This document shows, one piece after another, positions 11,101 through 17,061 of a stretch of DNA of 27,440 bases. Made by a program: the position numbers and the translations under genes. How positions within the stretch are numbered: position 1 is the first letter of the stretch; every line of letters begins with the position of its first letter. Under the pieces are notes generated by a model. It was not told the DNA's origin, ran no database searches, and saw nothing but the letters and a program-made list of their open reading frames with translations. Source of the stretch: a virus; IMG/VR virus record IMGVR_UViG_3300044653_000040, positions 1 to 27,440 of that record. The stretch is one strand, 5' to 3'.

Positions 11101-11505
11101 TCAAATGTTGCGGCGTTTCTCGATCTCGATCTCGCCCCACGTGCGCGGGGTCCAGTGGCAGTCGCGCTCTACGATCAGCAGGCCGGGAACCCGGTGCATC
11201 TGCGGCGCCATGCCTAGGGTCACGATCCGGCCGTCCGCGCGGACCCGCTCCAGCTCGGGCAGGCTGAACGGTCCCCACTCGGGTCCGTGGCCGATGTCGG
11301 CGGCGCCGTACCCGATCCAGTCCACGCGGTCCAGCTCGGCGAGGTACCAGTCGCAGCCCCCGGAGAAGTAGTGAATCCAGATCACCTTGTGGTCGGCGAT
11401 CGTGTGCTCGGTGTCGTAGTACTCGGGGATGCGGTTCAGCACGTCGCGGGGCGGGAGGAACAGGTGGCCGCGCCGTCGCTTCTGGGTCTCGGTGAAGTCA
11501 CTCAT
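11101..11505 (-). CDS. DUF2958-like protein
   Basis: 134 residues matching the usual DUF2958 layout: a start with LFLPPRDVLNRIP, then KVIWIHYFSGGCDWYLAELD, then GYGAADIGHGPEWGPFSLPEL, and an end with LLIVERDCHW. DUF2958 proteins occur on plasmids, phages and other mobile elements; the biochemical role is not established. The start ATG 11505 has a strong AGGAGGTGA six bases upstream, inside the end of the preceding gene, which it overlaps by eight bases. A strong hairpin follows the stop. Confidence 0.78.
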   Translation of the reverse strand: MSDFTETQKRRRGHLFLPPRDVLNRIPEYYDTEHTIADHKVIWIHYFSGGCDWYLAELDRVDWIGYGAADIGHGPEWGPFSLPELERVRADGRIVTLGMAPQMHRVPGLLIVERDCHWTPRTWGEIEIEKRRNI

Positions 11506-12248: not shown

Positions 12249-12586
12249 GCGGTCACCTCCGGGTGGTGGCGTGTATACACTCGACGCCCGACCCGGCGTC
12301 GCGGGTTACGTGGGCGATCATGCTTTCTCGGCGGGGTCGGCAGGCCGGTCACTTCGTAGGCGTCCACGCTCTCGAACGCGGCGCGCAGCTCAGCCTCGGG
12401 CACGGCGCCGCCTAGGTAGGTCGTGGTGATCTCCTGGCCTCGCGGGTGGGTCACGGTCAGGCAGTAGCCATCGAGGGCGCCGCCGTCCCGCAGCGTGGGG
12501 TCCAGGTGGCCGCTCGTGTTGGTCAGGTGTTTCAGGTCGAGGCGGGCGCCGCCGGGTGTCACCCAGCGGCGCGCGGTCGGGGTCAC
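12245..12586 (-). CDS. Hypothetical 113-residue protein
   Basis: Unrecognised protein with a mixed alpha/beta core at about 38-85 (DGYCLTVTHPRGQEITTTYLGG, then EAELRAAFESVDAYEVTGL) and a strongly basic C-terminal tail (PPRKHDRPRNPRRRVGRRVY). The tail could contact nucleic acid. The GTG start at 12586 overlaps the stop of the 49-residue gene, and the end overlaps the next gene, so it is coupled on both sides. Confidence 0.7.
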   Translation of the reverse strand: MTPTARRWVTPGGARLDLKHLTNTSGHLDPTLRDGGALDGYCLTVTHPRGQEITTTYLGGAVPEAELRAAFESVDAYEVTGLPTPPRKHDRPRNPRRRVGRRVYTRHHPEVTA

Positions 12587-12732
12587 TGGTCCGCCTCAAG
12601 GGCGCCGTCGATCGCGGCAAGCGCGGCGTCGGTGTCATCGGCTAGTTCCTCGTTCGGGTCTGCGGGCTCTACCCACGTGTCTTGGTCGTCGCGGCGGCGG
12701 TTCGGGCGCCGTAGCTTCTGGATCTGGTGCAT
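12583..12732 (-). CDS. 49-residue protein resembling a truncated Pup (ubiquitin-like) protein
   Basis: Short acidic protein. The N-terminus is MHQIQKLRRPNRRR and the C-terminal half EELADDTDAALAAIDGALE, ending ADQ. The second half follows the helix pattern of Pup, the protein tag of the actinobacterial proteasome: E-x-L-x-D-D-x-D-x-x-L-x-x-I-D-x-x-L-E. Pup then continues for about a dozen residues to a GGQ or GGE end; here the protein stops early, but still with Gln as the last residue. The only in-frame start is ATG 12732, with AAAGGA unusually far upstream (about 16 bases). The stop overlaps the next gene's GTG. The Pup relation is inference from pattern only. Confidence 0.65.
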   Translation of the reverse strand: MHQIQKLRRPNRRRDDQDTWVEPADPNEELADDTDAALAAIDGALEADQ

Positions 12733-12764
12733 GGCGGTGTTTCGGTGTTCCTTTCAGCGGGCCG

Positions 12765-12791
12765 GGGGGCGCCGTTTCGGGCGGCGCCCCC
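12765..12791 (-). terminator. Strong hairpin within the leftward operon
   Basis: GGGGGCGCCG (12765-12774) pairs with CGGCGCCCCC (12782-12791) across a seven-base loop, and two further base pairs can form beyond a bulge. It lies between the first leftward gene and the 49-residue gene, 18 bases after the stop at 12809. It may be a terminator or attenuator giving high expression of the first gene relative to the rest. Confidence 0.5.
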
Positions 12792-12808
12792 GGTTAGGTG
12801 GTCCCGGC

Positions 12809-13552
12809 TCAGTTGCTCATGTCGGCAAGCTGGGCGCGGGCGTCGGCGCGGTCGGTGGCCAGGCCGCTGTCAACCAGCGCGTCGGCACGGTCGGCGCGGC
12901 GGGTCCGGCGGGTCACGCCAGGCTCTCCGGTCGCCTCAGCAATGGCGGCCTCAATCGCCGCCACGGTGGTCCCCGCGTCGGCGGTCAGGGCCTCGCGGCG
13001 GGCGCGGTCGGCCTCAGCCTTGGCCTGCGCGCGGTCGGCGCGGCTCTTGCCCCGGCGGCGGCTCGGCGGCGCGGCAGCGTCGGCGGCCTCGGGGGTGGCA
13101 GCGGCAGCCTCGGCCAGCGCGGCAGCCTCGGCCGTGCTCATGGTCGCGCGGTGCTCGCGGCGGCGGTTCCGGGTGTGGGCCGCTAGCTCAGCCTCGCCCA
13201 TCCGGGCCTCGGCGGCGGCGGTCGGGCTCTCGGGCGCCTGGCGGGCGGGCGCCCGGTTCGAGCGGCGGCGGGTCGTGGTCGTGGCCGGGCGGGTTTCGAG
13301 CCCGGTCGCGTACTTGTACTCGCGGTTCCGCTTGCACGCGCCGCAGGTAATGCAGTCCAGCGCGGTGTCAATCTGGAATCCGCGCTCGGCGGCGGCAACC
13401 TTCAGCGCAAACTTGCGCCGGTCCTCGGGCGTCATCAGCACGGTGCCGCAAAAGCACTTCGCGCCGGTCTCCTCGGCGCCAAGGTGCCAGTTCTTCGTGG
13501 CAACGTCGGTCTGCGCGCGGTAGGTGTAGGTCGGGGTGGCGGTGGTGGTCAT
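12809..13552 (-). CDS. Cys-containing, Ala/Arg-rich protein, first gene of leftward operon
   Basis: 247 residues; not recognised. The N-terminal about 95 residues contain C-x-C (AKCFCGTV) and C-x2-C-x2-C (DCITCGACK), probably a metal site, with MTPEDRRKFALKVAAAERGF between them. The rest is low-complexity: an Arg/Thr stretch (TTTTRRRSN), then long Ala/Glu/Arg helices likely to form coiled coils and bind nucleic acid. ATG 13552 is chosen over 13612 because AAGGA lies nine bases upstream. It is promoter-proximal, followed by a hairpin, and faces away from the oxygenase cassette. Confidence 0.72.
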   Translation of the reverse strand: MTTTATPTYTYRAQTDVATKNWHLGAEETGAKCFCGTVLMTPEDRRKFALKVAAAERGFQIDTALDCITCGACKRNREYKYATGLETRPATTTTRRRSNRAPARQAPESPTAAAEARMGEAELAAHTRNRRREHRATMSTAEAAALAEAAAATPEAADAAAPPSRRRGKSRADRAQAKAEADRARREALTADAGTTVAAIEAAIAEATGEPGVTRRTRRADRADALVDSGLATDRADARAQLADMSN

Positions 13553-13899
13553 GTCGGGCCGTCCTTCCGGCTCGGGGGCCGCGCTCCGTGCGTTGCCCTG
13601 TATCTGATTCAACCACGGTTGTATTGGCTACATGCCCGATCCGATCGTGACTCGTGTCACATCATGGTCACTCTTTGCAGTCATGTCCCGGTCACGCAGC
13701 GCCGAACAGCCCCCCGGCGCTCGGGAGAGCGTGTCTACCGCGTCACCACGTCAGGTCGCTGTCCTTACACCGGATCGGGCTGCTGAGCATTTGTCGAGGT
13801 CAGCGGCCTGTTCCGAATGGTGCTATCGAACACCCCCCGATCATCGAATACCTGGCTCAATCTGGTGATTCACGTCACAACCCAGCTACGATGCCTCGC
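13553..13899. promoter_or_regulatory. Divergent control region between leftward operon and oxygenase cassette
   Basis: About 350 bases with no convincing gene and lower GC than its surroundings. It holds several dyads: CAACC-AC-GGTTG at 13610-13621, GTGAC-TCGT-GTCAC near 13647-13660, and repeated GTCAC half-sites further right. At the right end TACGAT (13887-13892) could be a -10 box, with a weak -35 around 13863-13868 and an 18-base spacer, putting the transcript start almost on ATG 13900. Both operons probably start here under one or more regulators. Confidence 0.5.
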
Positions 13900-14457: not shown

Positions 14458-15101
14458 ACCACTACGACGAGATCGCGGGGGAGTACGACGGCCGGTTCAC
14501 GCGGCCGGTGGATCGGTGGGAAGACGAGAACCTGGCGCGGCTCCTGCGTCCGATCACGGACGGCCTCCGCGTCCTCGACCTCGGGTGCGGAACCGGCTGG
14601 CTCCTCGACCACTGCCTACCGGCGGAATACACCGGAGTTGACTCGTCGGGGCCGATGCTCGCGGAGCTGGAGCGCAAGCATCCCGGCGCGCTGACCGTCA
14701 AGGCCGAGATCGGCGAGGAGCCGTGGGCGGCCGGGCTCACGGTCGGCGGCTACGACGCGATCGTGTCCACCTGGAGCCTGGAGTACCTGGGGAACCTGGA
14801 CACGCTGCTGTCGGTGTGCTGGCGGCTCGCGGCGCCGCACGGGACTCTCGCGCTGCACGGCACTCTCCCGCGAGGCCACCGCCGGGGCCACTTCTCGGTG
14901 AAGTCGGCGCCGTACCGCCCGCTGGGGCCGCACCAGGTACGGCAGGCGTCCGCCGTGGCCGGGATTCCGCGGCCGAAGGTGACGGGTACCGGGTGGCTCC
15001 CCGACACCTGGACGCGGCTCGGCCGGGCGGTGTGGCGCGGGACGCTGCCCTACCCGGCGGGGACGCACTACGCGGCGCTGTGGACCTGGAGGCTCCCGTG
15101 A
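14454..15101 (+). CDS. Class I SAM-dependent methyltransferase
   Basis: 215-residue methyltransferase. Motif I is VLDLGCGTG at 40-48, followed by YTGVDSSGPML (acidic residue after beta 2) and YDAIVSTWSLEYLG as the post-core motif. There is no DPPY or NPPY motif of DNA N6-adenine/N4-cytosine enzymes and no PC motif of C5-cytosine enzymes, so it is closer to small-molecule or protein methyltransferases (Methyltransf_11/25 type). The GTG start overlaps the oxygenase-like stop (GTGA), and the end overlaps the PP-loop gene the same way. It likely acts in one pathway with those two proteins; the substrate is unknown. Confidence 0.82.
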   Translation: MNHYDEIAGEYDGRFTRPVDRWEDENLARLLRPITDGLRVLDLGCGTGWLLDHCLPAEYTGVDSSGPMLAELERKHPGALTVKAEIGEEPWAAGLTVGGYDAIVSTWSLEYLGNLDTLLSVCWRLAAPHGTLALHGTLPRGHRRGHFSVKSAPYRPLGPHQVRQASAVAGIPRPKVTGTGWLPDTWTRLGRAVWRGTLPYPAGTHYAALWTWRLP

Positions 15102-16231
15102 GAGCGATGCTCGGCATGACCGTGTTCGACGCGGCGGTTGCCCGGATGCGGGAGCAGTACGAGGAGGGCCACCGGATCGTGGTCTCGGCGTCGGGCGGGA
15201 AAGACTCGACGTGCTGCGTCGAGGTCGCGCTGGTCGCGGCGCGGGAGGCCGGGCGGCTCCCCGTCGAGGTGGTGACCCGCGAGGAGGAGATCATCCCGCC
15301 GGGGACGCGGGAGTACCTGATGCGGCTCCGCGAACGCGACGACATCGACCTGCACTGGCTCGTCGCGCACCAGCCGTCGATCAACGCCTTCGACCGCGAG
15401 GAGCCGTTCTGGTGGGTGATGGACCCGCTCCTAGACCCGTCGCTGTGGGTGGTCCAGCCGCCCGAGTGGGCCGAGCACATCGCCGAGTACAACATCGAGG
15501 CGATGACGATCCCGGAGCGGTTCCCGCCGCCGCCGGGCAAGGAGCTGCGCGCCGTGGTCGGCCTGCGGGTGCAGGAGAGCCGGGGACGCCTGTTCGGGCT
15601 CTACAGCTCGGGCGGGTACCTCACGAAGGCGAACCCGTGGGGCGTGCGGAACATCCGCCCGATCTACGACTGGCTCGACTCCGATGTGTGGCGGGCCATC
15701 GACGTGAACGGGTGGGAGTACAACGAGGCGTACGACGTGCTCCACCGGCTCGGCGTGCCCCGGAGCCAACTGCGGATCTCGCCGCCCACGATGAACGCGG
15801 GTTCGGGTGACGTGCTGCGGCTGCTCGCGTCGGCCTGGCCGACGTGGTGGGACCGGGTGTCGCGGCGCCTCCCGAGCGTCCGCACGTTCGCGCAGTACGG
15901 CAAGCGCGCGGTCACCGCGCAGAAGTCCCGCGCCGAGACGTGGGAGGAGTGCTTCCACCGGACCTGTATCGAGAAGGCGCCCGCCTGGATCGCGGAGCGC
16001 GCCGAGCTCCAGATGCGGCGGTCGCTGTCCGGGCACCGCGCGCACTCCTCGACGGCGTTCCCCGATGTCGGCATGTGCCAGGTCTGCGGGTCCGGGCTCG
16101 GCTCGTGGCGGGAGCTGACCCGCGCCCTGTACCTCGGTGACCCGTTCAGCGTGAAATGCCGGTCGCTGCCCTACGTCCAGCCGTCAGTCTTCCGCCCCGG
16201 CGAACCGCGCTGGGGCGGCATCCCCGGATAG
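15098..16231 (+). CDS. PP-loop ATPase, PAPS-reductase/DndC-like
   Basis: 377-residue protein of the adenine-nucleotide alpha-hydrolase fold. The PP-loop is S32-GGKDS-37 (IVVSASGGKDST), which binds ATP or PAPS. Later segments include VVGLRVQESRGR, a typical GxR-x-x-ES motif of this group, and IRPIYDWLDSDVW. The C-terminal part has Cys285, Cys290, Cys327, Cys330 and Cys354, which could hold zinc or an Fe-S cluster. Family members adenylate substrates or transfer sulfur (CysH, TtcA, DndC). Phage versions are common near ParB-like genes but are poorly characterised. GTG 15098 overlaps the previous stop; ATG 15107 is an alternative start. Confidence 0.82.
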   Translation: MRAMLGMTVFDAAVARMREQYEEGHRIVVSASGGKDSTCCVEVALVAAREAGRLPVEVVTREEEIIPPGTREYLMRLRERDDIDLHWLVAHQPSINAFDREEPFWWVMDPLLDPSLWVVQPPEWAEHIAEYNIEAMTIPERFPPPPGKELRAVVGLRVQESRGRLFGLYSSGGYLTKANPWGVRNIRPIYDWLDSDVWRAIDVNGWEYNEAYDVLHRLGVPRSQLRISPPTMNAGSGDVLRLLASAWPTWWDRVSRRLPSVRTFAQYGKRAVTAQKSRAETWEECFHRTCIEKAPAWIAERAELQMRRSLSGHRAHSSTAFPDVGMCQVCGSGLGSWRELTRALYLGDPFSVKCRSLPYVQPSVFRPGEPRWGGIPG

Positions 16232-16242
16232 GAGACCCGCGA

Positions 16243-17061
16243 ATGCCCGCTCGCCGACGCAAGGGCCAGGCCGCAATCGAGAAGCTGAACGCCAGGCTCG
16301 AACGGCTGACCATCGAGTACATCTCGGCGGCCGAGATCACGCCGAACGACTACAACCCGAACCGCCAGGGCGAGCACGAGTTCGCGATGCTCAAGTCGTC
16401 CATCATGGAGGACGGGTTCACCGACCCGGTGAAGGTGGTCGAGCGCGACGGCGGCGCGATCGTCATCGTGGACGGCGAGCACCGCTGGCGGGCCGTCCGG
16501 GAGCTGGCGGCCGAGGGCAAGCTGCCCGACGACCAGCTCGCGATCGTCAAGCTGCCGATGGGCGAGGCCCAAGCCAAGATCGCCACGCTTCGCCACAACC
16601 GGGCGCGGGGCTCCGAAGACATCCAGCTCGCCACCGACGTGCTCCGCGACCTGGAGCAGCTCGGCGCGCTGGACTGGGCGGCGGACTCACTCGACATGAG
16701 CGACGCGGAGCTACAGCGGCTCATGGAGGACATCCCGGCGGCTGAGTCGCTGGCCGGTGAGGAGTTCAGCGAGGCGTGGGCGCCGGGCGGCTCGAAGGAG
16801 ACCACGGACCAAGGGCCGGTGCAGGTGTCCGCGACCGAGGCCGGTGTCAACGCCGACCGGGAGCGGGAGCGCCGGATCAAGGAGGCGACGACCGAGGCCG
16901 AGCGTCAGCAGGCCCGGAACGACCGGAACGTCTACCGGCTCCACCTGACGTTCGGCGGGGAGGAGGCCGACATCGTGAAGGCCGCGCTCGGCGAGAAGCC
17001 CGCGCAGTCCATCCTCGCGTGGGCTCGGGAGCACGCGCCGGTCCCGGCCGAGGCGGGCTGA
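16243..17061 (+). CDS. ParB/sulfiredoxin-fold protein
   Basis: 272 residues. The N-terminal ParB/Srx domain (about 25-125) shows ITPNDYNPN, DGFTDPVKVVERDG, the signature IVDGEHRWRA (DGEHR at 77-81) and KIATLRHNRARGS. A helical region follows (about 130-165), then a charged linker and a C-terminal domain (VYRLHLTFGGEEADIVKAAL). Proteins with this fold include chromosome-partition CTPases, nucleases, sulfiredoxin and serine kinases, so the activity cannot be named. No partner ParA gene is nearby; instead it follows the PP-loop gene by 11 bases with a GGAGA ribosome site seven bases before ATG 16243. A role in the same modification pathway is inferred. Confidence 0.82.
   Translation: MPARRRKGQAAIEKLNARLERLTIEYISAAEITPNDYNPNRQGEHEFAMLKSSIMEDGFTDPVKVVERDGGAIVIVDGEHRWRAVRELAAEGKLPDDQLAIVKLPMGEAQAKIATLRHNRARGSEDIQLATDVLRDLEQLGALDWAADSLDMSDAELQRLMEDIPAAESLAGEEFSEAWAPGGSKETTDQGPVQVSATEAGVNADRERERRIKEATTEAERQQARNDRNVYRLHLTFGGEEADIVKAALGEKPAQSILAWAREHAPVPAEAG

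Follow-up and report, generated by a model that had tools for sequence, protein, structure and literature searches.

A Pup-like peptide without a conjugating tail encoded by a putative actinobacteriophage

Cellular Pup proteins (PF05639; Mycobacterium, Streptomyces) are 60-72 residues long, end in a conjugating tail, and are encoded beside dop, prc and pafA; the adjacency of pup to the genes for PafA/Dop and the proteasome has been described previously (PMC3511204). When Pup is bound to the coiled coil of the proteasome ATPase Mpa, it forms a helix from residue 20/21 to residue 51 in the numbering of Mycobacterium tuberculosis (Mtb), and when bound to PafA it forms two helices, 38-47 and 51-58 (PMC5286830). 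Free Pup ending in Gly-Gly-Gln (Pup-GGQ) binds Mpa in the presence of the proteasome and escapes degradation (PMC3769308), and a second Pup copy in Leptospirillum ferrooxidans was reported to lack the terminal Gly-Gly-Glu (GGE) (PMC3511204). A literature search found no paper on phage manipulation of the Pup-proteasome system. Here we examine P0001, a 49-residue open reading frame (ORF) of the IMG/VR virus record IMGVR_UViG_3300044653_000040, whose entire 27,440 bases constitute the window that was analysed. P0001 is best described as a Pup-related phage peptide without a tail, which may work like the ATPase-binding part of Pup.

P0001 lies on the minus strand (12732..12583) and its translation is MHQIQKLRRPNRRRDDQDTWVEPADPNEELADDTDAALAAIDGALEADQ. 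A preliminary description of this DNA had placed a 49-residue ORF ending in ADQ at these coordinates, and both the position and the ending (...ALEADQ) were confirmed; the strand had been left unsaid. Codon log-odds for P0001 were +0.35 per codon, higher than in the other five frames, with negative values for the long plus-strand ORFs that overlap it, and G+C content by codon position (0.82/0.41/0.82) was typical of genes; we take P0001 to be a real gene. It is part of a minus-strand operon, in which its TGA stop and the GTG of a 113-residue gene overlap; that gene in turn overlaps an 89-residue gene.

To the Streptomyces Pup, P0001 has 10 identities over 19 helix positions (pairwise BLASTP, E 3e-4), in agreement with the preliminary description, and it shows the E-L-x-D-D-x-D-x-x-L-x-x-I-D-x-x-L-E helix pattern of cellular Pup. 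Among 24,736 Pfam families, Pup (PF05639) was the top family for P0001, although the score of 15.3 bits (E 0.04) was below the curated cut-off of 27 bits. One family match of this strength is expected over the ∼45 genes of the window, so the Pfam score alone proves nothing, and at that stage chance was a fair verdict. We also built a hidden Markov model (HMM) from four Pup sequences, three of them full-length and entered by hand and the fourth a fragment; on comparison with PDB chains, its Mtb and Streptomyces sequences could be recognized as genuine Pups. With this model, P0001 had the top score of 6,935 ORFs, drawn from the window and from related phages, and that score was reached by 2-3 of 20,000 composition-preserving shuffles. 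When phage Pups were added to the model, 0-1 of 20,000 shuffles reached the score, and over four HMM tests together the range was 0-3.

The verdict of chance was shifted by the existence of Pups that stand alone in phages, and by a gapless match between P0001 and one of these. Scanning IMG/VR with cellular Pups revealed 35 loci encoding full-length Pups (L085-L119). Twenty-three distinct proteins could be read, with 11 ending in GGE and 12 in GGQ, and ten that were compared with PF05639 scored 62-78 bits. Matches to PafA/Dop or to the proteasome were found in none of the 35 Pup-bearing records, which are up to 174 kb long. The flanking genes checked at four of the loci were viral: a major head protein, tail tube and helicase near pup in a T4-like phage (L114), a terminase (L116), a portal and a head maturation protease, one on each side (L096), and a UvsX-like recombinase (L103). 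Stand-alone Pups occur in unrelated phages, for which PHROGs contains no family, and this is a firmer, and perhaps larger, result than P0001 itself. An isolated phage, Streptomyces phage Dagobah, also has a gene annotated 'ubiquitin-like protein Pup' (QMP84414.1, MT711977.1; L120:5824-6060), whose product scored 47.8 bits against PF05639; no PafA/Dop gene is present in the Dagobah record, and the genome paper is silent on the Pup gene (PMC7650747). MT835496 (MT835496.1:41859-44998, L121), listed as 'Bacteriophage sp.', was rejected as a source of phage Pup, since its pup is flanked by two PF03136 (Pup ligase/Dop) genes, the arrangement of a host locus, and the entry probably consists of bacterial chromosome or includes a segment of it.

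Residues 1-46 of P0001 align with the Dagobah Pup from Met1 without a gap; 17 of 46 positions are identical and 25 are positive, among them the stretches NEELAxDTDAxL and ALE. None of 20,000 shuffles reached the alignment score, and Gumbel fits gave p values of 5e-6 to 1e-4, to be multiplied by the ∼25 Pups compared. When 9,015 ORFs were searched with P0001, the top seven non-self matches were all phage Pups, led by Dagobah (E 0.0025), and the best non-self match of Dagobah Pup residues 1-48 was P0001 (E 5e-4). Reversed P0001 also placed 5 Pups in its top seven, at 10.5 bits compared with 17.2 bits for the forward sequence, and the best Pup score among 146 shuffles was 13.6 bits. Thus, composition explains part of the resemblance, but not the score, and the relatedness of P0001 to the phage Pup group exceeds that of composition-matched controls. 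As a positive control, the Dagobah Pup was cut to residues 1-46 and compared with an HMM built without it; it scored 18.8 bits, and P0001 16.5, so a weak score fits a diverged, truncated actinophage Pup. Based on these comparisons, P0001 is probably a C-terminally truncated relative of phage Pup by common descent. It was also considered that P0001 might be an unrelated small phage protein with a basic head, an acidic amphipathic helix and some other function (e.g., as partner of a neighbouring regulator), which is Pup-like by composition and helix periodicity only. Such an origin, which would suit a sub-threshold Pfam score of a strength expected once in the window, the Pups found by the reversed sequence, the lack of homologues, and a location where unrelated genes are exchanged, is harder to reconcile with a signal that depends on residue order in several tests and with colinearity to the Dagobah Pup from Met1; we regard it as a serious possibility, albeit short of an even chance.

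P0001 and the Dagobah Pup share a setting, both being encoded by actinobacterial phages in records without PafA/Dop (PF03136 had no match in the window), but the Dagobah Pup has 78 residues and goes on into the canonical core and a VGGE tail, whereas P0001 ends at residue 49. Similarly, the IMG/VR stand-alone Pups resemble P0001 in being small, with a basic head, an acidic helix, a phage context, and no ligase or proteasome gene beside them, but all have an LDEIDxVLEEN-type core and GGE or GGQ, and P0001 has neither. By its description, the second Pup of L. ferrooxidans is, like P0001, a Pup relative without a conjugating tail, but it is cellular and located within a complete pupylation locus. 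In the Dagobah Pup, a degenerate copy of the core (residues 34-48) seems to precede the canonical one (50-64), although this signal is weak (45 of 20,000 shuffles); it was not seen in L093 or L115, and was rejected as a general feature of phage Pups.

P0001 residues 28-49 correspond to residues 30-51 of Mtb Pup, such that the end of P0001 coincides with the end of the Mpa helix and the aligned part represents most of this helix. An AlphaFold model from the single sequence, which is weak evidence, contained only one helix (residues 27-47) and a predicted local distance difference test score of ∼63 at the N-terminus, and fits the arrangement of Pup, in which one long helix follows a disordered N-terminus. 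The head carries a charge of +6 in 14 residues, compared with +4 to +6 in several phage Pups, and the rest of P0001 is acidic. Relative to the core motif (V/T)DxxLDEIDxxLEEN, P0001 has TDAALAAIDGALEAD, in which D, L, ID and LE are kept and acidic positions are lost; the score of this 15-mer (residues 34-48) was reached by 3 of 20,000 shuffles. By the alignment, P0001 ends at the equivalent of Mtb residue 51 and so lacks the second helix (51-58) used with PafA/Dop, and no window ORF has a GGE or GGQ ending, the tail found in all 23 distinct phage Pups that were read. The earlier characterization of P0001 as a binding helix without a tail was therefore apt. A Pup tail downstream in another frame was ruled out, because the conserved 113-residue gene starts at the P0001 stop. 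The terminal Gln, previously regarded as retained from Pup, is present, but it is no reliable trace of GGQ because the GTG of the next gene begins with the last base of the Gln codon. Since P0001 is below the family cut-off and has neither the tail nor the second helix, we have not filed it as a Pup.

If P0001 is a Pup relative, its most likely use is as a decoy for ARC/Mpa that cannot be conjugated. The peptide would retain the N-terminus, basic and probably disordered, together with most of the helix that joins the ARC/Mpa coiled coils. The second of the helices that bind PafA/Dop is missing, as is the Gly-Gly-Glu/Gln tail, and without the tail the peptide cannot be attached to proteins. We infer that P0001 is expressed, binds ARC and benefits the phage. 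Free P0001 would occupy the ARC coiled coils in infection or lysogeny, and delivery of pupylated proteins would be slower. Because free Pup-GGQ is bound yet not degraded, a free Pup without its tail could remain on ARC in competition with pupylated proteins. We assign a probability of roughly 0.38 to P0001 being a truncated relative of phage Pup that acts as a free decoy on ARC/Mpa.

Several observations, in addition to the Pfam score and the reversed search described above, count against the decoy. The core is worn (LAAIDGALEAD compared with LDEIDDVLEEN), with A in place of D, E or V at several positions that are otherwise conserved, and the first part of the Mpa helix is broken by prolines 22 and 25. 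P0001 had no match in NCBIfam or in PHROGs, and no homologues among phages, plasmids, viral contigs and 50 related phage records, in which Pup was likewise without a match. Two scans of genome contigs gave no matches and identified neither a prophage nor a host, and the presence of Pup-proteasome genes in the host is assumed from its phylum. Other genes occupy the equivalent location in relatives, as described below. In the profile search proposed in the preliminary description, Pup was the best Pfam family, although under its cut-off, and the outcome that would have spoken against Pup, no profile similarity and no conservation of the helix in homologues, was found only in part, the profile score being sub-threshold and no homologues having been found. 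The earlier reading of P0001 is supported in part: the Pup resemblance survived testing and gains credibility from phage-encoded Pups, and it loses from the same low score and the degenerate IDxxLE core.

P0001 could also descend from a phage Pup whose C-terminal half was deleted, leaving a protein that no longer has a function. Conservation in Pup is highest in the part that is missing, the core is worn, the downstream gene abuts the stop, and relatives carry no copies, all of which would be expected of a decaying remnant, but the reading frame is intact, the coding signal is good, and start and stop codons overlap in the operon. Small phage genomes quickly shed dead genes. We consider decay unlikely. 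Finally, the PafA-bound helix H1 (Mtb 38-47) maps onto P0001 residues 36-45, raising the idea that P0001 fills the first half of the Pup-binding groove and acts on PafA or Dop, not on ARC; this we judge to be very improbable.

The location of P0001 was compared among relatives by synteny through the 113-residue gene, which led to L002-L005 and L044 (Table 1). In L003, L004 and L044 this conserved gene is preceded by unrelated genes, the slot being occupied by a 141-residue gene or by two other ORFs. A hairpin similar to that of the window is found at the equivalent position in the same three records, with z values of -2.9 to -3.7, and an AAGGAAC leader is common to all four at the front of the slot, while the gene content behind hairpin and leader differs in each relative. 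Since these front elements are kept and the genes behind them are unrelated, the slot seems to be an exchange site for accessory genes. A viral scan with the P0001/Dagobah alignment returned 159 candidate stretches, and none was confirmed.

Table 1. Positions of P0001, its parts and its surroundings in the window, with the slot front in related records.
Feature	Position	Strand	Remarks
P0001, Pup-like ORF, 49 residues	12583..12732	minus	ATG at 12732, TGA at 12583-12585; best coding frame
P0001 residues 27-47, NEELADDTDAALAAIDGALEA	12589..12651	minus	Predicted helix, equivalent to Mtb Pup ∼29-49 (Mpa helix)
Shine-Dalgarno-like AAAGGAA	12748..12754	minus	∼15 nt before P0001 ATG (somewhat far); read from sequence
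G+C-rich hairpin between 267-residue gene and P0001	12762..12793	minus	z only -1.4 in the window
Slot-front hairpin and AAGGAAC leader	window 12733-12808; L003:2826-2900; L004:3078-3155; L044:6560-6640
113-residue gene directly downstream of P0001	12245..12586	minus	GTG start overlaps P0001 stop; conserved in L002-L005 and L044
267-residue gene upstream of P0001 (or ∼248 residues from internal ATG)	12809..13612	minus	Ala/Arg-rich, no family

The portal protein of the window matches phages of Actinobacteria, and on this basis we assign this soil virus to the actinobacteriophages. A terminase, head proteins and a serine recombinase are also encoded, suggesting that the phage is probably temperate. 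No relatives of the 267-residue gene upstream of P0001 were found. The operon that contains P0001 also encodes a DUF2958 protein (PF11171, 23.8 bits, over the cut-off; 11101-11505, minus strand). Elsewhere in the window (15100-17061, plus strand), an SGGKDS-type protein, PAPS-reductase-like by eye, is followed by a ParB-N protein, and this pair is seen again in the related phages L049, L051, L056 and L057.

On a broader view, which we hold to be rather doubtful, a Pup captured by a temperate actinophage has become an inhibitor of the bacterial proteasome ATPase that cannot be conjugated. This would be one form of a wider phage strategy, to which the stand-alone full-length Pups would also belong, that hinders or exploits the Pup-proteasome system of the host. 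With a tail-less Pup and stand-alone Pups in unrelated phages, phage action on the Pup-proteasome system could be tested using small peptides together with standard Pup assays. If P0001 does act in this manner, it would represent a natural starting point for ways to block the ARC/Mpa coiled coil.
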